NCBI RefSeq assembly: GCF_003697815.1
Contig: NZ_RDQG01000046.1
Coordinates: forward strand, 1 to 40,607
Direction of reading: 5' to 3'
Source of the DNA: Halalkalicoccus subterraneus
GTDB taxonomy: Archaea > Halobacteriota > Halobacteria > Halobacteriales > Halalkalicoccaceae
DNA: 40,607 bases
In this document: in pieces, positions 6,616-26,162 of the stretch
How positions within the stretch are numbered: the first letter of the stretch is position 1
How the letters are laid out: each line of letters begins with the position of its first letter
The notes under the pieces: generated by a model
Database searches by the model: none
Seen by the model: the letters and a program-made list of their open reading frames with translations, nothing else
Told to the model about the DNA's origin: nothing
Program-made: the position numbers and the translations under genes

Positions 6616-7883
6616 GCGAGTCGTCGATCTTCATCACCGAGGAGCGCATCGAGGGCGAGGACGAGGGACCGCTCGCGGGCAAGACGGTCGCCGTCAAGGA
6701 CAACATCAGCACCGACGGCGTTCGCACGACCTGCGGCTCCGCGATGCTCGAAAGCTACGTCCCGCCGTACGACGCGACGGTCGTCGAGCGCCTGAAGGGG
6801 GCGGGCGCGACGATCGTGGGCAAGACGAACATGGACGAGTTCGGGATGGGCAGTACGACCGAGACCTCGCATTTCGGTCCGGCCCCCAACCCCGCCGCCG
6901 AGGGCCACGTTCCGGGTGGTTCCTCGGGCGGGTCGGCGGCGGCGGTCGTCGCCGGCGAGGCCGACCTCGCGCTCGGGACCGACACGGGGGGTTCGGTGAG
7001 AAATCCGGCGGCGTTCTGTGGCGTCGTCGGGATCAAACCGACTTATGGGCTGGTTTCGCGCTACGGACTGGTCGCCTACGCCAACAGTTTGGAGCAGATC
7101 GGGCCGTTTGCGCCCACAGTGGAGGGGGCCGCCGAGCTGCTCGACGTGATTTCGGGCCCCGACGAACGCGACGGAACGACGCGCGATGAGGGTGCCGACA
7201 GTGACTACGCGAGCGCCGCCGACGGCGACGTCGACGGGCTCTCGATCGCGATCCCGACGGAGCTCGTCGAGGGGGCCGACGAGGGCGTCCGGGAGCGGTT
7301 CTGGGAGGCGATCTCCGAGCTCGAATCGCAGGGTGCGAGCTCCCACGAGGTGAGCCTCCCTTCGATCGAGTACGGCGTCGCGGCCTACTACGTGATCGCG
7401 ATGTCGGAGGCCTCCTCGAACCTCGCGCGCTTCGACGGCGTGCGCTACGGCCCGGCCACCGAGTCGGCGGGCAACTGGAACGAGGCCTTTGCCGCCGTGC
7501 GCGAGGAGGGGTTCGGCGACGAGGTCAAACGGCGGGTTCTCCTCGGGACCTACGCGCTCTCTGCGGGCTACCACGAGAAGTACTACGCGAAGGCCCAGGA
7601 CGCCCGCGCGTGGGTGAAACGCGACTTCGAGGAGGCGTTCGAGGAGGCGGACGTGATCGCCAGCCCGACCATGCCGATCCCGCCCTTCGAGGTCGGCGAG
7701 AGCCTCGACGACCCGATGCAGATGTACCTCTCGGACGCCAACACGGTTCCGGTAAACCTCGCGAACCTCCCGGCGATCTCGGTTCCGGCGGGTGAGACCG
7801 ATGGGCTTCCTGTCGGACTGCAGTTGGTCGGCCCCGCCTTCGGCGAGGAACGGATCATCCATGCCGCGAGCGCGCTCGAATAG
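6612..7883 (+). CDS. gatA: Asp-tRNA(Asn)/Glu-tRNA(Gln) amidotransferase subunit A
   Basis: This 423-residue amidase-signature protein has the Ser-cisSer-Lys triad visible: Lys29 in VAVKDN, the GGSSGGS cluster at 102-108 and the nucleophile Ser128 in GTDTGGSVRNP. GIKPTYGLVSRYGLVAYANS follows, as is typical of GatA. It hydrolyses glutamine or asparagine to supply ammonia to GatB. It is somewhat shorter than bacterial GatA (about 480 residues), mostly at the N-terminus, which is usual in haloarchaea as far as I know. It is coupled to gatC by a 4-base overlap. Confidence 0.94.
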   Translation: MSESSIFITEERIEGEDEGPLAGKTVAVKDNISTDGVRTTCGSAMLESYVPPYDATVVERLKGAGATIVGKTNMDEFGMGSTTETSHFGPAPNPAAEGHVPGGSSGGSAAAVVAGEADLALGTDTGGSVRNPAAFCGVVGIKPTYGLVSRYGLVAYANSLEQIGPFAPTVEGAAELLDVISGPDERDGTTRDEGADSDYASAADGDVDGLSIAIPTELVEGADEGVRERFWEAISELESQGASSHEVSLPSIEYGVAAYYVIAMSEASSNLARFDGVRYGPATESAGNWNEAFAAVREEGFGDEVKRRVLLGTYALSAGYHEKYYAKAQDARAWVKRDFEEAFEEADVIASPTMPIPPFEVGESLDDPMQMYLSDANTVPVNLANLPAISVPAGETDGLPVGLQLVGPAFGEERIIHAASALE

Positions 7884-7969
7884 CCCGTTCTGTCGGCTGT
7901 AAGTAACTGTGTGAAACTCCGTCCAGCTCCGAGCCAGCGAGCATCTCGAACGACGTACAGCCGACGGTA

Positions 7970-8320
7970 TCAGTCCTTCGGGGAGAGCTTCCCGGCAAAG
8001 GTCTGGAACTCGATGGTCCCGTCGGGGATGTAGAACGTATCGGTCGCGAACTCGTAGACGTTCTCGGGCGTCTCCGCGTGCCAGATGATGTAACCGAATT
8101 CCCCCTCAGTCAGCTGTTCGTCCATCGTGATCGTCGCCTCGGGATCCGAGAACTCGGCGAACAGGTCCTCGAACAGCCCCTCGATCTCCTCGAGACCGCG
8201 GACCGTTCCCATGTTGGTGACGACGACCGACCCGTCGGTGTAGTCCTCCATGATTCCCGCTACGTCCTGCTCGATGAAAGCCTCCCAGTGGTGCTCGAAA
8301 ACGGATTCTGTGGTGCTCAT
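7970..8320 (-). CDS. SnoaL/NTF2-fold protein of unknown function
   Basis: The product has 116 residues. The pattern MSTTESVFEHHWEAFIEQDV, then MEDYTDGSVVVTNMGTVRGLEEI and later FATDTFYIPDGTI, fits the SnoaL-like NTF2 cone fold: a small one-domain protein that binds hydrophobic ligands or acts as an enzyme. No specific reaction can be assigned. The start at 8320 is favoured because a GGAG lies six bases upstream of it. In-frame ATGs at 8332 and 8353 are alternatives. An inverted repeat over an AT-rich core sits about 60-80 bases upstream, next to the winged-helix regulator gene, which may control it. Confidence 0.75.
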   Translation of the reverse strand: MSTTESVFEHHWEAFIEQDVAGIMEDYTDGSVVVTNMGTVRGLEEIEGLFEDLFAEFSDPEATITMDEQLTEGEFGYIIWHAETPENVYEFATDTFYIPDGTIEFQTFAGKLSPKD

Positions 8321-8379
8321 AGCGATCTCCATCCCCGTGACGTGACGGCACACGACAGGGGGATGGGAACTGATTTACC

Positions 8380-8401
8380 ACGAACGATAATAAACGTTCG
8401 T
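8380..8401. promoter_or_regulatory. Inverted repeat over a TATA-like core (possible operator)
   Basis: The arms ACGAACG (8380-8386) and CGTTCGT (8395-8401) are perfect 7-base complements around the AT-rich spacer ATAATAAA. On the minus strand the spacer reads as a TATA-like element for the SnoaL-fold gene. The right arm touches the stop codon of the winged-helix regulator gene. The layout suggests an operator over the promoter; a transcription terminator hairpin for the regulator gene is the main alternative. Confidence 0.45.
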
Positions 8402-8751
8402 TACCCCTCGTAGGCGAGGTTCATGATCCACTGCGAGAAGGCGTCGCTGTTGGCGTCGATCTCCTCCTCGCCGATAAAGGGCGAGAGCATGTCGCCGGCC
8501 ATCAGCAACGAGAAATCTAGATCGCGGGCCGCGGGCGTCAGCAGGTAGGTGTTGTGGCCGTTGTAGACCGTGTCCTGGCGCTCGATCAGGTCAGTGCTGG
8601 CGAGCTTCTCGGCGATGCGACTGCCCTTTCGCGAGGAGACGTCCAGTTCCTTCCAGAAGTCGCTCTGATGGATCCCCCCGCTCTGGCGGACGAGTTCGAG
8701 CCCGACCCGTTCGTCCTCCGACAGCTCGGCCTCGAGTTCGGCGGCGCTCAT
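8401..8751 (-). CDS. Winged helix-turn-helix (MarR-like) transcriptional regulator
   Basis: This 116-residue acidic protein is built like a small DNA-binding regulator: helices LSEDERVGLELVRQSGGIHQS and FWKELDVSSRKGSRIAEKLA (putative recognition helix), then a wing IERQDTVYNGHNTYLLT. The C-terminal third (residues 75-116) is of unknown type, perhaps a dimerisation helix. It is upstream of the SnoaL-fold gene on the same strand, with an inverted repeat between them, so it may regulate itself or that neighbour. It is divergent from an aminotransferase gene. No ligand domain is seen. Confidence 0.75.
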   Translation of the reverse strand: MSAAELEAELSEDERVGLELVRQSGGIHQSDFWKELDVSSRKGSRIAEKLASTDLIERQDTVYNGHNTYLLTPAARDLDFSLLMAGDMLSPFIGEEEIDANSDAFSQWIMNLAYEG

Positions 8752-8772
8752 ATTCCTACAAGGCCGCCCGAC

Positions 8773-8783
8773 GCCTTTAACGT
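8773..8783. promoter_or_regulatory. Shared TATA-like element between divergent genes
   Basis: GCCTTTAACGT lies about 30 bases from the winged-helix regulator start at 8751 (read on the minus strand as TTAAAG) and about 33 bases before the ATG at 8808 on the plus strand. Either or both genes could use it; the two promoters would then overlap and compete. Confidence 0.35.
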
Positions 8784-8807
8784 TGACCGTCCACGACCGG
8801 GAGGATC

Positions 8808-14192: not shown

Positions 14193-15104
14193 TCAGTAGT
14201 GCCACGGGTAGTCGTCGAAGTCGGGATCGCGCTTCTCGAGGAAGGCATTCCGACCCTCTTGAGCCTCGTCGGTCATGTAGCCCAGCCGGGTGGCCTCGCC
14301 CGCGAACACCTGCTGGCCGACCATCCCGTCGTCGACGGCGTTGAACCCGAACTTGAGCATGCGGATGGCGGTCGGGCTCTTCGAGGTGATCCGGTTCGCC
14401 CACTCGATGGCCGTCGCCTCTAACTCCTCGTGGGGCACTGTTTCGTTGGCCATCCCCATTTCCACCGCCTCCTCGGCCGAGTAGGTCTTCCCGAGGAAGA
14501 AGACCTCCCTCGCCTTCTTCTGGCCGACCTGCCGAGCCAAGTAGGCCGAACCGAACCCGGCGTCGAAACTCGCCACGTCGGGGTCGGTCTGGAGGAACTT
14601 CGCGTGCTCCTCGCTCGCGAGCGTCATGTCACAGATGACATGGAGGGAATGGCCACCGCCGACCGCCCAGCCCGGTACGACGGCGATCACGGGCTTTGGC
14701 ATGAACCGGATCAACCGCTGGACTTCGAGGATGTGGAGTCGGCCGGCCTTGGCCTCGCGGACGTCGTCCGAATCGTCGTCCGCGGCCTCGTCGTCGCCGC
14801 GGTACTCGTAGCCCGAACCGCCCCGCACTGACTGGTCACCCCCCGAACAGAACGCCCAGCCGCCGTCCTTTTCGGAGGGGCCGTTCCCGGTCAGCAGGAC
14901 ACAGCCCACGTCGGTCTGTTTGCGCGCGTGATCCAGCGCGCGATAGAGTTCGTCGACGGTACCGGGCCGGAAGGCGTTTCGCAGTTCGGGGCGGTCGAAG
15001 GCGATCCGAACCGCGCCCGTCTCACGCGCACGGTGGTAGGTGACGTCGTCGAAGTCGTTCTCGACGGGTTCCCAGCGGTCGGGATCGAAGATCTCGGAAA
15101 CCAT
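14193..15104 (-). CDS. menB: 1,4-Dihydroxy-2-naphthoyl-CoA synthase
   Basis: The product has 303 residues of crotonase fold. Features are the substrate pocket FDRPELRNAFRPGTVDEL, the oxyanion-hole segment FCSGGDQSVRGGSGYEYRG, VPGWAVGGGHSLHVICDMTLA, TDPDVASFDAGFGSAYLARQ and the C-terminal YMTDEAQEGRNAFLEKRDPDF. The GGDQ and EGRNAF strings are typical of MenB. It closes the second naphthoquinone ring from o-succinylbenzoyl-CoA. The start MVSEIF at 15104 was chosen; an ATG at 15131 is possible. It follows menD by 36 bases and is the last gene of menF-menD-menB. Confidence 0.93.
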   Translation of the reverse strand: MVSEIFDPDRWEPVENDFDDVTYHRARETGAVRIAFDRPELRNAFRPGTVDELYRALDHARKQTDVGCVLLTGNGPSEKDGGWAFCSGGDQSVRGGSGYEYRGDDEAADDDSDDVREAKAGRLHILEVQRLIRFMPKPVIAVVPGWAVGGGHSLHVICDMTLASEEHAKFLQTDPDVASFDAGFGSAYLARQVGQKKAREVFFLGKTYSAEEAVEMGMANETVPHEELEATAIEWANRITSKSPTAIRMLKFGFNAVDDGMVGQQVFAGEATRLGYMTDEAQEGRNAFLEKRDPDFDDYPWHY

Positions 15105-15140
15105 GCGAACCGGTACGCGTCCGGCCGCCAAAAGCGCCCG

Positions 15141-16874
15141 TCATCCGAGGCGCTCGCGAACCCGCTCGTGGATTTCCTCCCGGATCCGGTGGCTCGCCTC
15201 GCTATCGGTGCGTACCTCGATCACCTGCGTTCTCGAGGCGGTGAGCGAGGCCGCATACGCGTCCTCAAACCCTGAAAGGGAGTCCGTACGGACGAACTCG
15301 AAGCCGTAGAGGTCGGCCGTCGCCTCGAAATCGAGGCCGTGCGGGGTCTTGAACTGGCCGGTAAACGGCGGGTCGAACCCCTCGATGGGAAGCATGTGGA
15401 AGATGCCGCCGCCGTCGTTGTTGATCAGGACGACCGTGGCGTCGATTCCCAAGCGGGCGACCGCGAGCAGGCCGTTGGTGTCGTGGTAGTACGCCAGGTC
15501 CCCGGTTACGAGCACGAGGGGATCGTCGGTGGCACTGCCTGCCCCCAGAGCGCTACTGGTGATCCCGTCGATCCCGCTGGCACCCCGGTTGCCCAAAACG
15601 GTGAGGTCGGTCCCGCGGGGCCGTGCGAAGCGATCGGCGTCCCGGATCGGCATCGAGTTCGAGACGAACACCGTCGCGGGGTCGGGCGCATCCGAGAAAA
15701 CGCGTTCGAGGACCGCACCCTCGAACAGACGGTTCGTTTCCTCGTCGATGAGGGTCCAGTACTGGTCCTCGGCACCCTCGAACCGTGCCCGCCACTCGTC
15801 GCTCGTCGAGGAGTCGAGGTCGGCGGCGAGCGCTCGTGCGAGTTCGTTTCCGTCGGCGGCGACGAGGTCGGTTGCGGTGAACGTCGCCTCGCGCCACTCG
15901 CCGGCAGGGTCGACGAGGAACTGCCGAGCGTCGGCGTCCCGCAGGTAGTTCCGAAGGGGTTTCGAAGTGGGTGAGGCCCCGAACCGAAGCACCAGATCGG
16001 GATCCGGCCAGTCGGCGGCTGCGAGCCACGAGTCGTACCCGCCGGCCACGGTCGCCTCGTCGGAGTCGAATCGAACCCCCGAGAGGGGGTCCGCGAGGAT
16101 CGGAAAGTCCGTTTTCCGGCCGAGTTCGTGGATCGGTTCGCCAGCGAGACGGTCGGAGGGGCCAGCGACGATCAGGCCGCGTTCCGCGTTTTCGACGGCC
16201 CCCGCGAGCCGTCGGCGGTCGGTCTCGGAGAGGGTCGGTCGACCCTGCGTCACCGAGACGAACGGTCCGTCGCGCCCTGCTGCGGCGATCGGGAAGCGGT
16301 CGGCGAAGTCGGCGGGAAAGTCCTCGGTCTCGATGGGTTCGAGCGGTTTGGCGAACGGGGCGTTCAGGTGGACCGGTCCCGCGGGCACCCCCGTCGTCTC
16401 TGAGAGGGCCCGACAGACGGTGGTTCGCAGCGACCGGAGCCGGCGGCCCTCGGGGGCGGGTTCGGGGAGTTCGCGATACCACCGCACGGCGTCGCCGTAG
16501 AGCGTGGTCTGGTCGATCGTCTGGTTCGCACCCGAGTCACGCAGTTCGGCGGGGCGGTCGGCGGTGAGTACGAGCATCGGGACCCGCGACTGGGAGGCTT
16601 CGACGACGGCCGGATGGAAGTTCGCGGCGGCCGTCCCCGACGTACAGACCAGCGGCGTCGGTTCCCCCGTTCGTTTCGCGCGTCCGAGCGCGTAGAAGGC
16701 CGCCGAGCGCTCGTCGAGATGCGAGTGCACGGTAATGGAGTCGTGGGCGGCGAAGGCCACCGTGAGGGGTGTCGAGCGGCTTCCGGGTGCGATACAGACG
16801 TCCTCGATCCCCGATTTCGCGAGTTCGTCGGCGATCGTTCGTCCCCAGAGGGTTGAGCGGTTCGGCGCGCTCAT
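15141..16874 (-). CDS. menD: SEPHCHC synthase (2-succinyl-5-enolpyruvyl-6-hydroxy-3-cyclohexene-1-carboxylate synthase)
   Basis: This thiamine-diphosphate enzyme has 577 residues. The N-terminal domain has CIAPGSRSTPLTVAF, HLDERSAAFYALG and CTSGTAAANFHPAVVEAS; the C-terminal ThDP domain has the GDLAYYHD...INNDGGGIFHMLP arrangement that binds the cofactor and Mg. It joins 2-oxoglutarate-derived succinic semialdehyde to isochorismate. The start (MSAPNRST) overlaps the menF stop as ATGA. The same frame stays open far upstream over menF, but that part has no similarity and was left out. It is the second gene of menF-menD-menB. Confidence 0.94.
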   Translation of the reverse strand: MSAPNRSTLWGRTIADELAKSGIEDVCIAPGSRSTPLTVAFAAHDSITVHSHLDERSAAFYALGRAKRTGEPTPLVCTSGTAAANFHPAVVEASQSRVPMLVLTADRPAELRDSGANQTIDQTTLYGDAVRWYRELPEPAPEGRRLRSLRTTVCRALSETTGVPAGPVHLNAPFAKPLEPIETEDFPADFADRFPIAAAGRDGPFVSVTQGRPTLSETDRRRLAGAVENAERGLIVAGPSDRLAGEPIHELGRKTDFPILADPLSGVRFDSDEATVAGGYDSWLAAADWPDPDLVLRFGASPTSKPLRNYLRDADARQFLVDPAGEWREATFTATDLVAADGNELARALAADLDSSTSDEWRARFEGAEDQYWTLIDEETNRLFEGAVLERVFSDAPDPATVFVSNSMPIRDADRFARPRGTDLTVLGNRGASGIDGITSSALGAGSATDDPLVLVTGDLAYYHDTNGLLAVARLGIDATVVLINNDGGGIFHMLPIEGFDPPFTGQFKTPHGLDFEATADLYGFEFVRTDSLSGFEDAYAASLTASRTQVIEVRTDSEASHRIREEIHERVRERLG

Positions 16875-18217
16875 TCGGCGAGCGCGTCGAGGATCGGGCG
16901 GTACTTGAGCTGGACTTCCTCCCACTCCTCGTCGGGGTCCGAATCGGCGACGATCCCGTTGCCCGCAAACAGGGTGACGAGGTCGTCGCTCGCGACGCCA
17001 GAGCGGATGGCCACCGCGAACTCCCCGTCGCCCGCGGCGTCGAACCAGCCTACAGGTGCGGCGTACCAGCCCCGCTCGAAGGTCTCGGTCTTGCGAATTG
17101 TCTCCCACGCCGTTTCGGGCGGGAGACCGCCGACTGCGGGCGTCGGATGGAGCGCCTCGACGATCGAGAGGACGTGCCTGTCCTCGTCGAGTTCGGCCTG
17201 AATCGGGGTCCGGAGGTGCTGGATGGTCGCGAGCTTCCTGACGGTTTGTGGCGCGACCCGGACCTCCCCGAGGGGGTCGAGCTGCTCGCGGATCGTCTCG
17301 ACGACGATGCCCTGCTCGTGCTGGATCTTCTCGCTTTCGAGCAGCGATCGCATCAGCTCGTGGTCCGTCTCGGGGGTTTCGCCCCGCGCGACCGAGCCCG
17401 CGAGCGCTTCCGTCTCGACGCGCCGGCCCGAAAGCGAGACCAGCCGCTCGGGCGGGGCGCCGAAAAAGCCCGCCTCCTCGGTCGGCTCGACGAGAAACCG
17501 GTAGCACTCGGGGTAGGTCCGCCGGAGACGTTCGAGCACGTCCGGTATCTCGAGCGCCGTCGCGAGGCGGACTTCGAGCGCCTGGGCGAGGACGACCTTC
17601 CTGAGATCGCCTGCCGCGATCCGGTCGGTCGCGGCCGCGACCTGCTCGACCCACTCCTCGTGCGGAGTGGTGAGGGTGCGCGAAGCGATTCCGGGTGGGG
17701 CGGCGCTGGGCTGCATTGCCGGGTGGGCCGTGAGCTCCGAGCGCACGGTTTCGAGTTCGGTCTCGACAGCGTTTACGTCGGCCTCCGGACCGTAGCGCGA
17801 CACCGTGAGCCACGTCGTTTCGTCGGTTCGCGTGAGCTGTACCCGCGGGATCACGAACTCCGCGGCGTGAAACCCTCTCCACGGCGGGGCGGGTTCGTGA
17901 CCCGCGTGGAAGGCGACGCCGCCGAACGCGCGCGGCCGGGCGGCGGGGGGAAGATCGGCATCGAGCGTCGAGAACAACCGTGTTGCGTCCTCACGGAGGG
18001 TTTCGAAGCGGTCCGGGCCGTCGGCGCGGAACCGGGCAGCCGCGCCGCCACCGGCGATTTCGAGGCCGTCCGGAGCGGCCCAGTGAACCCGCGGGGGATC
18101 GCGCTCGAAGAGAAACGCCCGAAAGGAGAGATCCGCCAGTTCGCAGGCCCGACTCACGAGCGCGCTCCCCTCGGCGGGCGAGGCGACGATCGAGCCATCA
18201 CGGTGCGAAACGGTCAT
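16871..18217 (-). CDS. menF: Isochorismate synthase
   Basis: This chorismate-binding family enzyme has 448 residues. The conserved C-terminal half shows TEALAGSVARGETPETDHEL, LESEKIQHEQGIVVETIREQ, HLRTPIQAEL, ALHPTPAVGGLP and ERGWYAAPVGWFDAAGDGEF. It isomerises chorismate to isochorismate, the first committed step to menaquinone. The start MTVSHRDGS at 18217 was preferred to an in-frame ATG at 18292, which would run through the origin-box pair. It leads menF-menD-menB. Its upstream region (18218-18338) holds two origin-box motifs, discussed separately. An anthranilate or salicylate synthase role is unlikely in this context. Confidence 0.92.
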   Translation of the reverse strand: MTVSHRDGSIVASPAEGSALVSRACELADLSFRAFLFERDPPRVHWAAPDGLEIAGGGAAARFRADGPDRFETLREDATRLFSTLDADLPPAARPRAFGGVAFHAGHEPAPPWRGFHAAEFVIPRVQLTRTDETTWLTVSRYGPEADVNAVETELETVRSELTAHPAMQPSAAPPGIASRTLTTPHEEWVEQVAAATDRIAAGDLRKVVLAQALEVRLATALEIPDVLERLRRTYPECYRFLVEPTEEAGFFGAPPERLVSLSGRRVETEALAGSVARGETPETDHELMRSLLESEKIQHEQGIVVETIREQLDPLGEVRVAPQTVRKLATIQHLRTPIQAELDEDRHVLSIVEALHPTPAVGGLPPETAWETIRKTETFERGWYAAPVGWFDAAGDGEFAVAIRSGVASDDLVTLFAGNGIVADSDPDEEWEEVQLKYRPILDALAE

Positions 18218-18266
18218 TACCCGTTCTCGGGGTTCTGTCCCCTTCAGCGTACCTATCCGGGACCCA

Positions 18267-18312
18267 CACACCACGTTTCCGGTGAAATACACCGGGTTTC
18301 CGGTGAACGGGT
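18267..18312 (+). repeat. Tandem origin-box pair (copies A and B) behind orc1, upstream of menF
   Basis: Copy A (core 18275-18287) and copy B (core 18296-18308) both carry TTTCCGGTGAA in the same orientation, 21 bases apart. Copy A is identical over 23 bases (18267-18289) to the copy at 19541-19563 in front of orc1. Copy B starts ACACCGGG and ends with CGGG, like the copies at 19594 and 19925. The pair fills the gap between the orc1 stop and the menF start, so a bound initiator could also affect menF transcription. Confidence 0.75.
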
Positions 18313-18338: not shown

Positions 18339-19535
18339 TCAACTCTGGTCGATCAGCACGTCCCGAACCACCGTCGAGTCCTCGAGCAGCCGGTGGTTGG
18401 TGTAGCTCCCCTCGGCGCTGCCGCCGCTGTGGCGGGACTGTTCGATGATGTCGAGGAAGGCGTGTTCCTTGAGCAGGTCACGGACCCGCCGCAGGGATAG
18501 GGCTTCCGCGCCCTCCTGTCTGCAGATCTCCTCGTAAACGTCGTAGACGGCAGTGGTCCGAAACCCCTCGGCGCTCGCGTCGTTCAACGAGAGGATCGTC
18601 AGCGCATGGAGGACGTATCGGGAGTGGGGAGTCGAGCCACGGATGAGCTCGCGGAACCGGTCGGTCTCGGCGCGTTTGCGCGCGTCGGTGACGAACCCCT
18701 CCTGAACGCGGTCGGCACCCGTGGATTGGGCGATCTCTCCGGCATACCTGAGAATGTCGATCGCCTTGCGGGCGTCACCGTGTTCGCGTGCGGCGAGTGC
18801 GGCCGCCCGTGGGATCACGCCGTTATCGAGGACGCCCTCGCGGAAGGCGTCCCGGCGCGCCTCCATGATCTCGCCCAACTGGGAGGCGTCATAGGGTGGG
18901 AAGACGAACTCCCGCTCACAGAGGCTCGATTTCACCCGCTCGTCCATCCGGTCTTTGTACCGGATCTTGTTGCTGATCCCGACGACGCCGATCTTGCAGT
19001 CGGTGAGCTTGCCGGCTTCACCCGCGCGCGAGAGTTGCATGAGGATCGCGTCGTCGGCGAGCTTGTCGATCTCGTCGAGAAGGACGAGCACGACGTCGTA
19101 CGAATCGTCGAGGATGCGCCAGAGACGTTTGTAGTAGGTCGCGGTACTGATCCCCTTATCAGGGATGTTGATCCCGGTTTCCTCAGAGCGGTTCAACCCG
19201 CTCGCGATCGTCTGAACGGCCTGTGTTTCGGTAGTGTCCTGCGCGCAGTCGACGTACGCGAACGCGGCGTTCACCCCCTCGCTTCCGGCGGCGTCGACCA
19301 GCCGGCCCGAGACGTGTTTCGCACACAGCGATTTGCCGGTTCCGGTCTTCCCGTAGATGAGGATGTTGCTCGGGCTCTGTCCGAAGATCGCGGGATTGAC
19401 CGCGTTAGCTAGTAACTTGATCTCCTCGTCACGCCCGACGATCCGACCCTCCTCGGGGAGGTGGTTGATCTCCAGAAGCTCCTTGTTGACGAAAATAGGG
19501 TCATCGCGAATGAACAACTCGTCCGTCTCGACCAT
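18339..19535 (-). CDS. orc1: Orc1/Cdc6-family replication initiator (AAA+ ATPase)
   Basis: The product has 398 residues. The AAA+ module has Walker A GKTGTGKS at 62-69, Walker B VLVLLDEIDKL around 149-159, and a sensor-1-like segment GVVGISNK; the arginine-containing C-terminal part and a winged-helix domain (about 310-398, SLNDASAEGFRTTAVYDVYEEIC) follow. It binds origin boxes and loads the replicative helicase. The start MVETDELF at 19535 was chosen; an in-frame ATG at 19604 would read back through two origin boxes. Haloarchaea usually have several orc1/cdc6 paralogues, each often next to its own origin; this one is flanked by boxes on both sides. Confidence 0.93.
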   Translation of the reverse strand: MVETDELFIRDDPIFVNKELLEINHLPEEGRIVGRDEEIKLLANAVNPAIFGQSPSNILIYGKTGTGKSLCAKHVSGRLVDAAGSEGVNAAFAYVDCAQDTTETQAVQTIASGLNRSEETGINIPDKGISTATYYKRLWRILDDSYDVVLVLLDEIDKLADDAILMQLSRAGEAGKLTDCKIGVVGISNKIRYKDRMDERVKSSLCEREFVFPPYDASQLGEIMEARRDAFREGVLDNGVIPRAAALAAREHGDARKAIDILRYAGEIAQSTGADRVQEGFVTDARKRAETDRFRELIRGSTPHSRYVLHALTILSLNDASAEGFRTTAVYDVYEEICRQEGAEALSLRRVRDLLKEHAFLDIIEQSRHSGGSAEGSYTNHRLLEDSTVVRDVLIDQS

Positions 19536-19540
19536 ACGTC

Positions 19541-19563
19541 CACACCACGTTTCCGGTGAAATA
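19541..19563 (+). repeat. Origin-box copy C, over the orc1 promoter
   Basis: This 23-base copy is identical to copy A at 18267-18289 (core at 19549-19561). It ends 6 bases upstream of the orc1 ATG on its promoter side and overlaps a TATA-like stretch (minus strand CTATTTCA at about 19557-19564). Binding by Orc1 would be expected to block the promoter. Confidence 0.75.
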
Positions 19564-19593
19564 GCGCTTGCGTTTCGCCTCCAACGATGGGAG

Positions 19594-19624
19594 CGCACAC
19601 ACACCGGGTTTCCGGTGAAACGGG
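19594..19624 (+). repeat. Origin-box copy D (left arm of the 31-base inverted pair)
   Basis: The 31 bases are the exact reverse complement of 19925-19955. The core is GTTTCCGGTGAAAC at 19608-19621, preceded by a CA-rich run and ACACCGGG and followed by a G-run (GGGG), the layout of an origin recognition box with G-string. CACCGG and CCGGTG form a 6-base hairpin around GTTT inside it. Confidence 0.8.
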
Positions 19625-19778
19625 GTTCGAGGGTGGGTCCCCTTCCAGTCGAAACGGAGGTTGGTGCCGAAGGATCGAGTGAAACGATTCGAGGTGGGGA
19701 ACCACTCGACGACGCGCGACTAACCGGGACGGCTTGAAACGGCGCTGAGAGTTCGTTCGACTGGAGCTTTGGAAGGAA

Positions 19779-19860
19779 AGGCGATTATAGATCGCCTTGT
19801 ATCTAGTACGACGATTAACCCACTGGGCTATGAAACAGCTATAGTATATAAAATAGGAGG
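19779..19860. other. AT-rich stretch, probable DNA unwinding element
   Basis: This stretch is markedly AT-rich compared with its surroundings, with TATAGTATATAAAATAG at 19841-19857 and an internal inverted repeat GGCGAT-TATAG-ATCGCC at 19780-19796. It lies between the inverted origin boxes D and E, where helicase loading would start. A hairpin GAAGGGG/CCCCTTC at 19904-19920 sits between it and copy E. Confidence 0.65.
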
Positions 19861-19924
19861 ATGTTCGATAGTAGTGAGGTCATTCGAGAGAGACGAATCT
19901 CGAGAAGGGGTGCCCCCTTCTGAT

Positions 19925-19955
19925 CCCGTTTCACCGGAAACCCGGTGTGTGTGCG
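19925..19955 (-). repeat. Origin-box copy E (right arm of the 31-base inverted pair)
   Basis: It is the perfect reverse complement of 19594-19624 over 31 bases, with its core GTTTCACCGGAAAC at 19928-19941 and the CA-rich end pointing away from orc1. Opposite orientation on either side of the AT-rich stretch is the arrangement expected for bidirectional origin firing. Confidence 0.8.
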
Positions 19956-20037: not shown

Positions 20038-20634
20038 TCAGCTGTAGCGTTCCTCGTTCCACGGATCGGCGGTGTTCGAGTAGCCCCGTTTCTCCCAGAA
20101 TCCGCGTTCAGGCTCGGTGAGGAACTCGATCCCGTCGACCCACTTCGCCCCTTTGTAGGCGTACTTGTGAGGTGTCACGACCCGAAGGGGTCCGCCGTGC
20201 TCTCTCGGCAGCGCCTCCCCGTCGAACTCCCACGTGAACAGGACTTCGTCGCGCATGCACGCATCGAGCGGGAGATTCGTGGTGTAGCCGTCGAGCGCGG
20301 AGAACATGACGTGGACTGCGTCGTCGCGCACGCCCGCCCGTTCGGCCAGCGTCGGGAACGACACTCCAGTAAAAGCACAGTCGAACTTGCTCCAGCCGGT
20401 CACACAGTGAAAGTCCTGGGTCTGTGTCTCCCCTGGAAGCTCAGTGAACTCCTCGTAGGAAAACGAGAGGTCGGTCTCGACCGCGCCGCTTACTGTAAAC
20501 TCCCAGTGTTCGGGGTCGAATTCGGGGACCGATCCCTTCGAGAGGACGGGAAATTTCGAGGTCTCTCGCTGGCCCGGTGGCAGGCGCTTCCCGCCGAACT
20601 CCCGGTAGAGGTCGGTAACGTCCGTCGCGTCCAT
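20038..20634 (-). CDS. Sulfite oxidase-fold molybdopterin-dependent oxidoreductase
   Basis: The 198-residue protein has the molybdopterin-binding pattern of the sulfite oxidase/YedY family: WEFTVSGAVETDLSFSYEEF, then DFHCVTGWS with the cysteine that ligates Mo, FPTLAERAG, VMFSALDGYTTNLPL, HGGPLRVVTPHKYAYKGAKW and the end GFWEKRGYSNTADPW. No signal peptide is seen from the chosen start (ATG 20634), so it is probably cytoplasmic, unlike Tat-exported YedY. No dimerisation or heme domain is present. The substrate is unknown; methionine sulfoxide or related oxides are possible by family. The gene points toward the origin region. Confidence 0.88.
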   Translation of the reverse strand: MDATDVTDLYREFGGKRLPPGQRETSKFPVLSKGSVPEFDPEHWEFTVSGAVETDLSFSYEEFTELPGETQTQDFHCVTGWSKFDCAFTGVSFPTLAERAGVRDDAVHVMFSALDGYTTNLPLDACMRDEVLFTWEFDGEALPREHGGPLRVVTPHKYAYKGAKWVDGIEFLTEPERGFWEKRGYSNTADPWNEERYS

Positions 20635-20734
20635 AGACGAAGGGAGGCGGCCCAGAGGGGTATGCCTACCGGAAACCGAGATTGTCCCATCGAAAGGTTT
20701 CCTTGCCAGTTTTCGTATGAATTGTCCCGTTAGA

Positions 20735-20742
20735 GTTAAATA
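20735..20742 (+). promoter_or_regulatory. TATA-like element of the CopG-like gene
   Basis: GTTAAATA lies about 30 bases before the ATG at 20771, the spacing of a leaderless transcript. This also argues for that ATG over an upstream alternative at 20717. Confidence 0.45.
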
Positions 20743-20770
20743 CGCCTCCGTCGAAGCCCCGTCTGTTCCG

Positions 20771-20983
20771 ATGCCGAAAGTAGAAATCACCGTCCCGGAG
20801 CACCTCGAAATGCAAATCGCACAGATGGTCGATCAGGGGGAGTTCGCGACCCGTGACGAGGCCATCGAAGACCTGCTCTCCGCGGGGCTGAAAGCCTACA
20901 AGACCGGCGGATCGCAGATGGACGAGGAGCCCGGACTCGAGGAGGACGGAATGATGGGCCACGACGACGAGTACGTCTTCTGA
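20771..20983 (+). CDS. CopG-like ribbon-helix-helix protein
   Basis: The product has 70 residues. The first 45 fit a ribbon-helix-helix DNA-binding domain: the beta strand PKVEITVPEHL, then two helices (EMQIAQMVDQGEFATRDEAIED, LLSAGLKAYK). The tail is acidic and Met/Gly-rich (DEEPGLEEDGMMGHDDEYVF) and probably disordered. Such proteins dimerise and bind operator DNA; some are antitoxins, but no toxin gene follows. The next gene, UPF0058, starts about 90 bases on with its own TATA-like element, so the two are probably separate transcripts. Confidence 0.8.
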   Translation: MPKVEITVPEHLEMQIAQMVDQGEFATRDEAIEDLLSAGLKAYKTGGSQMDEEPGLEEDGMMGHDDEYVF

Positions 20984-21075
20984 TCGTCGGCCGTTCGTCC
21001 CTCCACTGACACCAGCCATGGGACCGGATGACGCGGGAAATTCTTAACATCTGGACCCGCATATCGGTAGATACG

Positions 21076-21354
21076 ATGCACAAAGACGAGCTTCTGGAAC
21101 TCCACGACCAGATGGTCACCATCATGGAGTACTTCAAACGTCAAGAGGACGTCGACGAGGAACTGTTCGCGCCCTACGATCGACTCGATGTCGACCCCTC
21201 ACACGTCCATAAGTCCAAAAGCGAACACAAACACGCGGTGTTCGTCCTCGGAAACGCCCTCGCGAGCGCCATGAGTAACGACGAGTTCTCCAGTGCGGGT
21301 CGTATCGGAAAGCGGATGGCGGAACTCGCTGACGACGCCGAACGGAAGATATAG
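21076..21354 (+). CDS. UPF0058 family protein
   Basis: The 92-residue protein begins MHKDELLELHDQMVTIMEYF and contains DPSHVHKSKSEHKHAVFVLGNAL, the His-rich signature of this conserved archaeal family, which is probably metal-binding and helical. Its function is not known. A TATA-like element (TTCTTAAC, 21041-21048) about 34 bases upstream supports the ATG at 21076 rather than an in-frame start at 21028. The following stretch 21355-21495 contains nothing I can support. Confidence 0.85.
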   Translation: MHKDELLELHDQMVTIMEYFKRQEDVDEELFAPYDRLDVDPSHVHKSKSEHKHAVFVLGNALASAMSNDEFSSAGRIGKRMAELADDAERKI

Positions 21355-21495
21355 CCACACTCGCGTCCGAACGAAGCGTGTTCTACGGGAGATTGTAGTA
21401 CCGACTCGAATCACGACGGCTAGTCGCCCTCGTCCCTACCGACGGCTGCCCGATTCGGGGCATCCCGCGATGGCCACGGTACCGCAGTAGAACGG

Positions 21496-21801
21496 TTAGC
21501 TCTCGACTTCGGCGACACCGTCGATCTTCATTCCTTCGAGGGTCTCGATCGTCTCGCCGAGCTTGCCGTCGAGTTCGGAGACGAACTCCTCGGTGCGCTC
21601 GGTGGTGATCGCACCCTGACTGGAGGGTTCGATGAGGTTCTCCTCCTCGAGGACGCGAAGCGAGTAGCGGACCTTGTGGTGCGGGTACCCCGTTTCGTTC
21701 GACATCTTCACGATCCCGATGGGCTCGTTTTCGATGACCATCTTCAGGACCTGAAGATGTCGTTCCAACATATCGACTTCCTTCTCAAGCCGGTCTATCA
21801 T
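21496..21801 (-). CDS. Winged-helix transcriptional regulator-like protein
   Basis: The product has 101 residues: an N-terminal coiled helix (MIDRLEKEVDMLERHLQVLKMVIE), a helix-turn-helix core (PIGIVKMSNETGYPHHKVRYSLRVLEEENLI) and a wing-like EPSSQGAITTERTEEF, ending in another helix. This is a common archaeal small-regulator architecture with a dimerising helix. No partner or ligand is evident. It is divergent from purA, and a perfect 12-base palindrome overlaps its probable TATA box, which would suit autoregulation. Confidence 0.75.
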   Translation of the reverse strand: MIDRLEKEVDMLERHLQVLKMVIENEPIGIVKMSNETGYPHHKVRYSLRVLEEENLIEPSSQGAITTERTEEFVSELDGKLGETIETLEGMKIDGVAEVES

Positions 21802-21825
21802 GGCATTTGTTAACTTGTCGTTCGT

Positions 21826-21837
21826 ACTTTTAAAAGT
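21826..21837. promoter_or_regulatory. Palindromic TATA element ACTTTTAAAAGT
   Basis: A perfect 12-base palindrome lies 25-36 bases upstream of the winged-helix gene start at 21801, so it can serve as a TATA box for a leaderless transcript on the minus strand. Its symmetry also makes it a candidate operator. purA on the other strand has a weaker TATA-like GTAATCGG at 21921-21928. Confidence 0.45.
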
Positions 21838-21956
21838 TGCTGTCGATACGGCGAGTTGCCGGGAGGATTTGATAGTTGTCGTGGGAGTGATTAACAGTTG
21901 TGGTTGGAGCCCGGCGGATCGTAATCGGTATGCGGGTCGGTCCGAAACCTCCGGCT

Positions 21957-23312
21957 ATGACCGTAACTATCGTCGGCGCACAGTTGGGCGACGAAGGCAA
22001 GGGCGGCGTCGTCGACCTCTACGGCGAGAACGTCGACGTCGTCGCGCGGTACCAGGGCGGGGACAACGCCGGCCACACCGTCGTCTTCGGCGACGAGGAG
22101 TACAAGCTCTCGCTGGTCCCAAGCGGTGCGGTTCGCGGGACCGTCGGCGTGCTCGGCAACGGCTGTGTCGTCAACCCCGAGACGCTGTTCGACGAGATCG
22201 ATGCCCTGCGAGAGCGGGGGCTGGATCCACAGGTGAAGGTCGCCGAGCGCGCCCACGTCATCATGCCCTATCACAGGGTGCTCGACGGGATCGAGGAGGA
22301 CGTCAAGGAGGACTCGGATCTGGACGCGGGTACGACGGGTCGAGGGATCGGCCCGACCTACGAGGACAAGGTCGGTCGCCGGGGGATCCGGATCGGCGAT
22401 CTGCTCGATTCCGACTCCCTCAGAACCAAACTCGAGTACGCCGTCCCTCAAAAGCGCGCCCTCGCCGAGGACGTCTTCGGAGCCACGACGGACGAGGCCT
22501 TCGACATCTCCAGTCTCTACGAGCAGTACCGGCGCTACGGCGAGCGCCTCGCAGAGGAAGGCATGACCGTCAACGCCGGCGATTACCTCACGAAGCGTAT
22601 CGAGTCGGGTGAAAACGTCATGTTCGAGGGCGCACAGGGCACCTCGATCGACATCGACCACGGCGACTATCCCTATGTGACCTCTTCGAACCCCACCGCG
22701 GGCTATGCGGCAACCGGTACCGGCGTCGGCCCAACAGTGGTCGGCCGCGGCGAGGTCATCGGGATCGTCAAGGCATATCTCACGCGCGTGGGAACCGGCG
22801 AGCTTCCGACGGAACTCGGCTCGGTCGACGGCCAGACGCCCCAGAACGGCGGACGCCCCGAGATGGCCGAACTCGCCACCCAGATCAGGGACGAGGGCGG
22901 CGAGTACGGCACCGTCACCGGCCGGCCACGCCGCGTCGGCTGGCTCGACGTACCGATGATTCGCCATGCCGCCCGCGTTAGCGGCTTTACCGGCCTTGCG
23001 ATCAACCACATCGACGTACTGGCGGGGATGGACGAGGTCGAAGTGGGCCACTCCTACGACCTCGACGGTGAGGAGGTCCTGACGATGCCCTCGACGAGCA
23101 AGCAGTGGGCGCGCTGTGAGGTCAACTATCGACGGTTCGACGGCTGGCCCGAGACCGACTGGGAGGCCGTCGCACGCGAGGGCTACGACGCGATCCCCGA
23201 GAACGCCCGCACCTATCTAGAGTACGTCAGCGCCGAACTCGACACCCCGATCTACGCCGTCGGCGTCGGTCCCGGTCGCGAGCAGACCGTCGTGGTCGAG
23301 TCCCCGTTCTGA
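21957..23312 (+). CDS. purA: Adenylosuccinate synthetase
   Basis: The 451-residue protein starts MTVTIVGAQLGDEGKGGVVD, with the GTP-binding P-loop variant GDEGKG at 11-16 and RYQGGDNAGHTV next, then TTGRGIGPTYEDKVGRRGIR, FEGAQGTSIDIDHGDYPYVTSS, TRVGTGELPTEL and RPRRVGWLDVPM. It joins IMP and aspartate with GTP to make adenylosuccinate on the way to AMP. The ATG at 21957 was chosen because the catalytic core starts there; an ATG-like start at 21900 would add 19 unmatched residues. The protein has inserts relative to 430-residue bacterial enzymes. Confidence 0.95.
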   Translation: MTVTIVGAQLGDEGKGGVVDLYGENVDVVARYQGGDNAGHTVVFGDEEYKLSLVPSGAVRGTVGVLGNGCVVNPETLFDEIDALRERGLDPQVKVAERAHVIMPYHRVLDGIEEDVKEDSDLDAGTTGRGIGPTYEDKVGRRGIRIGDLLDSDSLRTKLEYAVPQKRALAEDVFGATTDEAFDISSLYEQYRRYGERLAEEGMTVNAGDYLTKRIESGENVMFEGAQGTSIDIDHGDYPYVTSSNPTAGYAATGTGVGPTVVGRGEVIGIVKAYLTRVGTGELPTELGSVDGQTPQNGGRPEMAELATQIRDEGGEYGTVTGRPRRVGWLDVPMIRHAARVSGFTGLAINHIDVLAGMDEVEVGHSYDLDGEEVLTMPSTSKQWARCEVNYRRFDGWPETDWEAVAREGYDAIPENARTYLEYVSAELDTPIYAVGVGPGREQTVVVESPF

Positions 23313-23321
23313 GCCGTTCCC

Positions 23322-23882
23322 CTAGTTCTCGTGTCCGAGCCGCCACAGTGCCCGATAAAGCGTCCAGCAGTCCACGCCGTGCTCATCGGCGATCGCTCGA
23401 CATGCATCGAGAAACCTCCGGTACTCCTCGACCGAGGGCGAGTCAGGGTACGGCTCGTCGAGTTCGCCGGCGTCGTACAGCACCGTCCACGTTCGGGCGT
23501 CGACGGCCACGTAGCGATCGGGGTCGATGAACTGGAGGAAGGCGCTTGCGACACGCGTATCGACGCCCGCCAGCTCGGTCAGCCGTCCGACTCGCTCGTC
23601 GAGCGCCTCGGCGTTCGCGGCATCGATCACGGCTTCCCGCGTCGTGCTCCGTTCGTTCTCGGCAAAGCGATCCTCGCGCGCGCGCTGGCGGTCCTGCGGA
23701 TAGGCCCCGAGATTCCGCCGGTAGTACCACTGGACGACCCATTCGGCGTCGCGAAAGCCGAACTCCCCCTCGGCGAACGCGCTCGGAAGCGTCCCGATCC
23801 CCTCCTCCTCGACCGGATAGAGCGGTTCTTCTTCGATGTAGTCGGCGGCTGCCTCCTCGATCATCGAGCGAGTGAGTACCAT
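23322..23882 (-). CDS. Conserved hypothetical, possibly helix-hairpin-helix glycosylase-like
   Basis: The 186-residue acidic protein is mostly helical. The part ELAGVDTRVASAFLQFIDPDRYVAVDARTWTVL resembles the core of HhH-GPD DNA glycosylases, where a helix-hairpin-helix is followed by a conserved aspartate (here VDARTW). I cannot assign catalytic residues with certainty, so this is an inference. The N-terminal part (SAFAEGEFGFRDAEWVVQWYYRRN) is not familiar. The gene converges with purA, ten bases apart. The start at 23882 or Met7 at 23864 are both possible. Confidence 0.7.
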   Translation of the reverse strand: MVLTRSMIEEAAADYIEEEPLYPVEEEGIGTLPSAFAEGEFGFRDAEWVVQWYYRRNLGAYPQDRQRAREDRFAENERSTTREAVIDAANAEALDERVGRLTELAGVDTRVASAFLQFIDPDRYVAVDARTWTVLYDAGELDEPYPDSPSVEEYRRFLDACRAIADEHGVDCWTLYRALWRLGHEN

Positions 23883-23966
23883 GCACGGTTATTTGCGGGC
23901 CGGTGTCCTCAACGTTCGCCTCGTAACCGGGCTCCGTTACATATCACTCGATAGGACACGCGCAGG

Positions 23967-24019
23967 CGTTAAGTGGGTGGTACTCATTTACATGGTAGAT
24001 GATGGACCATCGAGGGAGG
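23967..24019 (+). promoter_or_regulatory. Promoter and ribosome binding site of the formate dehydrogenase gene
   Basis: A TATA-like CGTTAAGT at 23967-23974 would start transcription near 24000. GGAGG at 24015-24019 lies 7 bases before the ATG at 24027. This gene therefore has a short leader with a Shine-Dalgarno sequence, unlike the leaderless pattern of most first genes here. Confidence 0.45.
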
Positions 24020-24026
24020 AAGCATC

Positions 24027-26162
24027 ATGGCGTCTGAGGAGCAAGACCCGGTCAAAACGATCTGTCCGTACTGCGGCGTCGGCTGTGGGATTCAGGTGAA
24101 ACCCGGTGAAGAGCCCGGCGACATGCGCTTCATGCCGTGGGGCGAGGCGCCGGTCAACGAGGGAAAGATCTGTATCAAGGGCGGGGCGGCGACGCAGGTC
24201 GTCGACCACGAGGACCGGCTGACCGACCCGCTGATCAAGGAAGAGGGCGAGTTCCGCGAGGCGACGTGGGAGGAGGCCTACGAGCGAATCACCGAGGAGT
24301 TCGAACGCATCCACGAGGAGTACGGTCCCGACGCGATGGGTTTCTACGGCTCGTCGAAGACGATGAACGAGGAGAACTACCTCCTCCAGAAGCTCGCGCG
24401 CCGGTACGGGACGAACAACGTCGACAACTGCACGCGGATGTGCCACGCCTCGACGGTGTGGGCACTCCGAACCAGCCTCGGCGCGGGCGCGATGACCAAC
24501 AGCATGAAGGACCTCCGCGAGGAGGCCGACGTCTTCTGGATCCAAGGGGCCAATCCGGGCGAACAGCACCCGATCGCCAACAGCGTCTACTTCCGACAGG
24601 CGGTGTTGGAGGGTGCGACGGTCATCCAGGTCGACCCGCACGCGAACAAGACGACGCGGTCGTTCAAGATAAGCGAGACCGACCGCCACATGCACCTTCA
24701 GCTCGAACCGGGAACGGACATCCCGCTCCTCAATATCGTCCTCAAGACGATCCTCGAAAAGCACGAGGAGAACCCCGACGAGGGGTGGATCGACGAGGAG
24801 TTCATCGAGGAGCGCACCGAGGGCTTCGAGCACCTGAAGGAGACCCTCGAAGGCTTCGATGCGGCGGCCGCCGCCGAGGAGTGTGGCGTCCCGCTGGAGG
24901 ACATCGAACTCGCCGCCGAGAAGTACGCCTCCGCGGACAACGCCGCCGTCTTCACCGGGATGGGGATGAGCCAGCACGCCTGCGGCGTCGACAACGTCCA
25001 GAACGAGATCAACCTCGCGCTGATCACGGGCAACCTCGGCAAGCCCGGCACCGGCGTCAACCCGCTTCGCGGCCAGAACAACGTCCAGGGGACCTGCGAC
25101 GTCGGCGCGATGCCGAACGTCCTTCCGGGCTATCAGCTCGTCGACGACGATGAAGCCAGGGAGAGCGTCGAGGACGTCTGGGGCTTCGACGTGCCCCCGG
25201 AGCCGGGGTTGACGAACGTCGAGATATCCCACGAGTTCGGCGAGTCGGTCAAGGGACTGTACGTCATGGGCGAGAACCCCGTAATGAGCGAGCCCGACGC
25301 CAACGACGTCGCGGAACGGATCCAGGAGCTGGAGTTCATCGTCGCCCAGGACATCTTCATGACCGAGACGGCTAAGTACGCCGACGTGGTCCTGCCGGCG
25401 ACGACGTGGGCCGAACGCGGCGGGACGGTCACGAATACCGACAGGAGAGTCCAGCGGATGCGTCCCGTCCAGAAGGTCCACGAGAACACGAAACACGACC
25501 TCGAGATCGTCTCCGAGATCGGCACCAGACTGTTCGGCGAGGACGGCGGCTTCGACTTCTCGGACCCTGAAGAGGTCTTCGAGGAGCTTCGACTCGTGTG
25601 CCCGAGCTACCACGGGATGACCTACGACGCGCTCGGCGAGGAGGGGATCCAGTGGCCCTGCTACGAGGAGGGCGACGCGGGCGACCAGTACCTCTACGAG
25701 GACAGTTTCGACACCGAGAGTGGACTGGGCCACATCGAGGGCGTCAATCACACCCCGCCGGCCGAGACGCCCGACGAGGAGTACCCGCTGATCCTCACGA
25801 CGGCTCGACTGGAGGAGCACTACAACACGGGGACGATGAGCCGCCGCTCGCCGACGCTGAACCGCCAGCACCCCGAGAACTTCGTCGACGTCCACCCGAA
25901 CGACGCCGAACGATACGGCATCGAGGACGGCCAGGAGGTGACGATCCGCTCGCGGCGCGGCGAGATCACCGTCGAGGCCCAGGTCACCGAGGACATCAAG
26001 GAGGGCTCGATCTGGACGACGCCCCACTTCGCCGCGGCCTCGGCGAACAAGCTGACGAACGACGTGCTCGACGAACGGGCGAAGATCCCCGAGTACAAGG
26101 CCGCCGCCGCCGAGATCGAGGTCGGCATCGAGCCCGCCGGAGACGCGCCGGCGGACGACTGA
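24027..26162 (+). CDS. Formate dehydrogenase alpha subunit (molybdopterin oxidoreductase)
   Basis: The product has 711 residues. The N-terminal [4Fe-4S] site is Cys13, Cys16, Cys20 and Cys49 (CPYCGVGC ... KICIKG). The probable Mo ligand is Cys139 in NCTRMCHAS, with the adjacent His140, as in cysteine-type formate dehydrogenases. Molybdopterin dinucleotide regions follow (WIQGANPGEQHPIANSVYFR, GMGMSQHACG), and a C-terminal dinucleotide-binding domain from about residue 590 (LILTTARLEEHYNTGTMSRR). It oxidises formate to CO2 in the cytoplasm; no Tat signal is present. No beta or NADH-linked subunit gene is adjacent, so the electron acceptor is unknown. Confidence 0.88.
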   Translation: MASEEQDPVKTICPYCGVGCGIQVKPGEEPGDMRFMPWGEAPVNEGKICIKGGAATQVVDHEDRLTDPLIKEEGEFREATWEEAYERITEEFERIHEEYGPDAMGFYGSSKTMNEENYLLQKLARRYGTNNVDNCTRMCHASTVWALRTSLGAGAMTNSMKDLREEADVFWIQGANPGEQHPIANSVYFRQAVLEGATVIQVDPHANKTTRSFKISETDRHMHLQLEPGTDIPLLNIVLKTILEKHEENPDEGWIDEEFIEERTEGFEHLKETLEGFDAAAAAEECGVPLEDIELAAEKYASADNAAVFTGMGMSQHACGVDNVQNEINLALITGNLGKPGTGVNPLRGQNNVQGTCDVGAMPNVLPGYQLVDDDEARESVEDVWGFDVPPEPGLTNVEISHEFGESVKGLYVMGENPVMSEPDANDVAERIQELEFIVAQDIFMTETAKYADVVLPATTWAERGGTVTNTDRRVQRMRPVQKVHENTKHDLEIVSEIGTRLFGEDGGFDFSDPEEVFEELRLVCPSYHGMTYDALGEEGIQWPCYEEGDAGDQYLYEDSFDTESGLGHIEGVNHTPPAETPDEEYPLILTTARLEEHYNTGTMSRRSPTLNRQHPENFVDVHPNDAERYGIEDGQEVTIRSRRGEITVEAQVTEDIKEGSIWTTPHFAAASANKLTNDVLDERAKIPEYKAAAAEIEVGIEPAGDAPADD

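Follow-up and report, generated by a model that had tools for sequence, protein, structure and literature searches.

A probable secondary oriCb-type replication origin in Halalkalicoccus subterraneus and a core element that it shares with the loci of other Orc clades

The window, the stretch of 40,607 nucleotides that was analysed here and that represents contig C46 of the 101-contig genome of Halalkalicoccus subterraneus, very probably carries a secondary chromosomal origin of the oriCb type, at which the adjacent Orc would bind a set of boxes, the helix would open at an AT-rich centre where MCM loads, and two forks would start. The box pair, its polarity and its restriction to one locus, the AT-rich centre, the family of the Orc, the synteny in the genus and the conservation of a core element with its hairpin at origins with different boxes are all read directly from the sequences (Table 1), while binding of the Orc to the boxes, recruitment of MCM and bidirectional firing are proposed by analogy with the oriCb members that have been studied. 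The reading as a chromosomal origin is well supported at this level, and the first-pass annotation, which had suggested the same, is to be amended in that the origin is a secondary one, with oriC1 located on another contig, C72. Moreover, a picture consisting of boxes and an AT-rich spacer is incomplete, as it misses the separate core element, which is the most informative additional feature of the locus.

Table 1. Features of the origin locus, with positions and strands in the window.
Feature	Position	Strand	Description
orc1/cdc6 initiator gene	18339-19535	-	398 aa; oriCb (H. volcanii orc5) family; Pfam Cdc6_lid and Cdc6_C
Tandem boxes behind orc	18275-18287 (exact), 18296-18308 (one mismatch)	+	May titrate the initiator
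Promoter-proximal box	19541-19561	+	Immediately 5' of the start codon of orc; probably serves autoregulation
Box D	19594-19624	+	Arm of the 31-bp inverted pair on the orc side; CGCACACACACCGGGTTTCCGGTGAAACGGG
Spacer between D and E	19625-19924	.	300 bp, 48% A+T; A+T highest over the core element; candidate unwinding region
Classical ORB-like sequence	19643-19660	+	TTCCAGTCGAAACGGAGG, read from the sequence; resembles the oriC1 ORB of the same genome
Hairpin after the core element	19778-19798	-	AAGGCGAT-CTATA-ATCGCCTT
Core element	19809-19857	-	About 45 bp, asymmetric; TATA-like stretch, then AGCCCAGTGGGTTAATCG; family consensus AGTCCATTGA.tcA.TCG
Box E	19925-19955	-	Far arm; exact reverse complement of D

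Boxes D and E had been annotated as perfect reverse complements over 31 bases on either side of an AT-rich stretch, and exact comparison agrees with this. They form the sole perfect inverted repeat of at least 20 nt in the window whose arms are no more than 2 kb apart (87% complementary when extended without gaps to 52 nt), and the A+T content of the spacer compares with 34% in the window as a whole. The richest 60-mer of the spacer starts at 19830 (65% A+T) and belongs to the 48 highest of the 40,547 60-mers in the window. The box core GTTTCCGGTGAAA is found four times in the 3.61-Mb genome, at 18275, 19549 and 19608 on the forward strand and at 19929 on the reverse strand, all within 1.7 kb, while the same core written backwards gave 0 matches; with up to two mismatches there are six sites in the window versus 0.59 expected. 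Repetition of the box away from orc genes, which would speak against an origin, is therefore not seen in the genome, where the copies lie at one locus only. The internal CACCGG/CCGGTG hairpin proposed for the box exists as a near-dyad, but the unit conserved across relatives, and the consensus over 86 oriCb-family loci, is ACACCnnGTTTCCGGTGAAA. Its conserved tail seems to face away from the AT-rich centre, in the canonical ORB direction of TTTCACCGGAAAC followed by GGTGTG. A G-string ORB pattern, CC.CCGTTTCnnnTGGA, was rejected as a family feature in that form because it is present in only 9 of 76 loci, and the ORB-like sequence at 19643-19660 was not found as a family-wide feature among the oriCb-family loci.

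The alignment of six Halalkalicoccus loci shows that the boxes and the start of orc are nearly invariant, while the intervening sequence is largely unalignable. The longest perfect inverted repeats of these loci are 31 (window), 27, 24, 27, 28 and 13 bp, so that the exact pair of the window exceeds those of the five others. The shortest belongs to locus L104 (G002:C1), where 444 bp separate the far box from the core element and the arrangement is loosened. The Halalkalicoccus genomes compared share a syntenic gene neighbourhood that contains men-type genes and molybdopterin oxidoreductases. A probable menaquinone cluster with chorismate-binding, TPP enzyme and enoyl-CoA hydratase genes is found on one side (14193-18292) and the oxidoreductases on the other (20038-26162); among the loci compared, these neighbour genes are kept only within the genus.

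The orc1 gene said to lie beside the boxes is present there and carries the Pfam domains Cdc6_lid and Cdc6_C. Its product scores 417 bits against TIGR02928, is 94% identical to the Orc of H. paucihalophilus (91-95% for the orthologues within the genus) and 79-82% identical to members from Haloferax, Halorubrum and Natrialba, the relatives in Haloferax and Halorubrum adjoining rRNA operons. The oriCb family was described by Wu et al. 2012 with Hvo_orc5, Hbo_14700 and Hla_1524, which are linked to rRNA operons, and a second oriCb type without common synteny includes Hje_08365 of H. jeotgali (PMC3528665, in part). With an adjacent Orc about 80% identical to the members and inverted ORBs of the family type in the adjoining intergenic region, the window origin is a further member of oriCb. 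It resembles H. volcanii oriC2-orc5, H. mediterranei oriC3-cdc6G and Hje_08365 in an Orc of about 79% identity or more, in the same box and in inverted boxes upstream of orc; unlike the rRNA-linked members it has no neighbouring rRNA operon, as in the second type. The genome possesses many further Orc matches, and H. jeotgali has 4, 3 and 3 orc genes on its first three contigs. The window-type Orc of H. jeotgali, at 1.543 Mb, is located approximately where the tag 08365 would be expected, and the prediction of this counterpart seems to date from 2012 (PMC3528665, in part).

We also considered the possibility that the window contains oriC1, the universal primary origin of haloarchaea, in view of the inverted repeat of similar length with an AT-rich middle that lies upstream of an orc in Halobacterium NRC-1 (PMC1906834). 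This is almost certainly not the case. The window Orc scores 296 bits against NF001625, the ORC1-type (orc7 clade) equivalog, below the cut-off of 501, and no PolD small subunit gene is found among its neighbours, while the Orc on C72 reaches 656 bits and adjoins the PolD small subunit, which lies close to oriC1 in H. volcanii (PMC7776575, in part). Compared with Sso Cdc6-1, the C72 Orc scores 363 bits and the window Orc 210. The maximum of the skew in H. jeotgali falls at a C72-type orc, and the gene context of the window is matched only by other Halalkalicoccus loci among the genera compared, whereas the oriC1 context is syntenic (PMC3528665, in part). The passed cut-off, the PolD neighbour and the Cdc6-1 scores therefore place oriC1 on C72 and make the window another origin; compared with NRC-1 oriC1 (the orc7 ARS), its Orc is of another clade and lacks the PolD-linked context. 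Since the NRC-1 orc7 primer site had no exact match in 392 genomes, oriC1 was anchored by PolD and NCBIfam. The oriC1 locus on C72 (L212) possesses a 513-aa ORC1-type gene (6795-8336), which lies next to an aspartate kinase gene and the gene for the PolD small subunit, and G-rich ORBs surround an AT-rich stretch at 8300-8800 of this contig.

GC skew, which had been suggested as a check, was computed cumulatively on 76% of the H. jeotgali chromosome. Haloarchaeal skews are reported to be inverted relative to bacteria (PMC2841640, in part), with origins near the high points (PMC3119063, in part). The maximum (128 kb) is close to the oriC1-type orc, which lies at 138 kb; the minimum is at 1.268 Mb. 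A weak hump with the expected sign is seen at 1.544 Mb, where a second origin lifts R2 from 0.122 to 0.142 (p ~0.02 by block permutation for this fixed position, with 7% of positions doing equally well). The best position for a second origin is 0.54-0.58 Mb (~0.56 Mb), near another orc at 525.9 kb. With its main maximum at oriC1 and a weak second hump at the site, the skew is compatible with a weaker second origin at 1.544 Mb, short of proof. Because the hump is weak, we only infer that the window origin fires. Orc5/oriC2 of H. volcanii (PMC7776575, in part) and cdc6G/oriC3 of H. mediterranei (PMC4595724, in part) are active, while oriC4 of H. mediterranei indicates that origin-like loci may be silent (PMC4595724, in part), and by this example some oriCb-family origins can be dormant.

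The adjacent Orc would, by analogy, bind the inverted boxes as well as the box at its own promoter, and it would probably bind the pair of boxes behind its gene, too. A box within 60 bp of the orc start is found in 82 of 85 oriCb-family loci, the promoter box being invariant within the genus, and boxes downstream of orc occur in 33 of 86 loci; the former may serve autoregulation, and the latter may titrate the initiator as proposed for oriC2D of Haloarcula hispanica (PMC3936714, in part). Like oriC2D, which has an ORB cluster downstream of cdc6E, the window has boxes on the far side of orc, but two instead of eleven, and the titration role is a predicted one here. The frequency of the promoter box, together with the weak skew change at the H. 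jeotgali site, would also suit boxes that are mere operators for orc autoregulation, or an origin that is dormant and unused in normal growth. We consider this unlikely, as the polarity of the boxes flips exactly at the AT maximum and the core element in 58 of 59 oriCb loci (0.27 at random positions), the array of boxes and element is kept where orc is absent or kilobases away, and two Haloferax species have active orthologous origins (PMC7776575 and PMC4595724, both in part).

The core element was first visible as an extra conserved block of the AT-rich zone in the alignment of the genus. A profile built from 8 sequences was iterated and run on 76 dereplicated upstream regions, where it recovered the element in 41, once each and always on the orc strand, with no match in about 35 regions; in the final round reversed sequences gave no match. 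The consensus is AA.aatTAtATA.tata..tg.GTtA.aGTCCAtTgA.tcA.TCG, in which the TATA-like stretch is followed by the conserved motif GTCCATTGA. In all 41 loci the element lies between boxes of opposite polarity, (+) upstream and (-) towards orc, and it coincides with the local maximum of A+T (0.60, versus ~0.40-0.46 further away). A second model, R1, built from 27 sequences without structure, recovers the element at E <= 0.05 in 7 loci that the iterated profile missed and has a single match in the window genome (19810-19853, reverse strand, E 1.7e-6).

Our survey of 293 haloarchaeal genomes with R1 (E <= 0.01) shows 93 matches in 80 genomes and 33 genera, of which 86 are located upstream of an orc start, at distances of 188-1101 bp. 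These 86 comprise 59 sites of the oriCb clade and 27 at other Orc clades (identity to the window Orc ~49-62%); the model was built without any of these 27. The box of the window is absent from the required places in all 27 loci of the other clades (0/27), and accordingly the core element is not specific to a particular Orc. For instance, L106-type origins possess a different box, TACAGCGGCA..GAGGGGTGTG, around the same element, pointing one way in 22 of 22 upstream copies and the other way in 111 of 111 downstream copies, and L243-type origins have boxes of the ACGTCGGAAAC type. No orc was detected at the remaining 7 sites. Of these, L235 is the window-type locus of G004 in truncated form, L289 is cut off by the end of its contig, and the distance between L294 and its orc is 1.8 kb. 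In wider stretches, the element of each of L333-L336 is preceded by a (+) box and succeeded by a (-) box; orc is at 2.2 kb in L334 and 7.7 kb in L335, and no orc is detected within the 10-kb stretches of L333 and L336, so that the element follows the origin and not the gene. L333 (G097:C3 4648-5421) and L336 (G121:C6 4935-5335) may be orphan origins, and in L335 (G230:C1 9771-10270) the origin is apparently displaced from its family initiator.

A hairpin is found at a fairly constant distance past the core element, and its arms vary by lineage yet stay complementary (mean score 14.9, versus 5.8 for shuffles and 8.4 for random windows of the same loci). The end of the core element (X) recurs in the form X..X'..loop..X. 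Of 86 dereplicated loci, 32 have an exact triple of at least 5 nt, while shuffled sequences gave 0.5 (maximum 4) and segments swapped between loci 6.0 (maximum 14). Among 19 sister-clade sequences, 86.1% of the cells are paired for X':X (covariation 0.384 versus 0.236 shuffled) and 85.3% for X:X' (0.388 versus 0.234), figures that are inflated by shared ancestry; none of 500 shuffles reaches the observed values in either case, and slid controls stay at or below 42%. Compensatory columns (UA/CG 9:8 and AU/GC 9:7) change with lineage. Both pairings are equally supported, and thus the segment can fold, either as RNA or as single-stranded DNA, into two alternative hairpins that exclude one another. 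The counts bearing on the strand that folds, G-U versus A-C, are 7 versus 4 and 7 versus 3, and single-sequence RNA folds give z of -1.7 to -2.5. RNAalifold on an unguided alignment returned no structure, because MAFFT leaves the lineage-specific hairpins unaligned, and it was replaced by the shuffle and swap controls and the counts on the sister-clade alignment. No Rfam family matched at gathering thresholds, and a sub-threshold match to DsrA was judged to be chance.

The TATA-like stretch, the conserved T and purine about 30 nt further on and the invariant A near -10, which with the TATA-like stretch fits haloarchaeal promoter motifs (PMC4983044), point to a possible transcription start at the T/purine step, judged from the spacing. 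Together with the two exclusive hairpins and the position on the orc strand in 79 of 86 orc-linked sites, this would agree with a promoter and structured leader of the orc mRNA in place of an origin element. We regard such a leader as quite unlikely. The core lies opposite to the orc strand in 7 loci, it is found at four box arrays without a detected orc or with orc 2.2-7.7 kb away, its distance to orc varies over 188-1101 bp, and long leaders are rare in H. volcanii (PMC4983044). In the opposite-strand loci (L284, L295, L300, L302, L317, L305 and L332) the origin core appears to be inverted relative to its gene; five of these loci have an Orc of ~73% identity.

We think instead that the core element takes part in origin activation independently of the initiator. 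It may act as a site at which a general factor binds or melts the DNA, or as the promoter-like start of a short structured transcript. A more specific and tentative proposal is that at least three initiator families share an undescribed core of this kind, with a promoter-like start (the TATA-like stretch and GTCCATTGA) and an X..X'..X two-hairpin switch, whose transcript or melted strand would gate opening. The portions covered of PMC3528665, PMC3936714, PMC4595724, PMC4441112, PMC7776575, PMC2841640 and PMC3119063 do not mention the element, of which an earlier description may exist. The closest likeness is with Sulfolobus ucm, an 11-bp motif of the unwinding region at three origins, which is required for oriC1 activity and bound by UBP, the product of a relatively recent acquisition in Sulfolobales and Desulfurococcales (PMC12141716). 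Both are short conserved motifs in the unwinding region, common to origins with different initiators, and the position between inverted ORBs is found in 41 of 41 loci. Their sequences are unrelated (GTCCATTGA versus ATTATACAAAC for ucm, as read from the oligonucleotides of that paper; PMC12141716), so that the likeness is one of position and not of membership, and the hairpin triple is undescribed for ucm. H. hispanica oriC1 likewise has inverted ORBs with a further element between them, which affects origin efficiency; that element is a G-rich inverted repeat, whereas the one in the window is AT-rich and asymmetric.

The core element matters more than the origin itself, which is one more member of oriCb. 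H. volcanii oriC2 belongs to the same family, and this makes testable a question of the 2025 ucm paper, namely whether other archaeal lineages have origin elements or factors that are distinct from the initiator. Displaced or orc-less origins that are missed by searches next to orc genes are found with the R1 model. If the core element is required, haloarchaeal origins would have an activation step that is independent of the initiator, and if it is transcribed, it would represent a structured origin transcript in Archaea.
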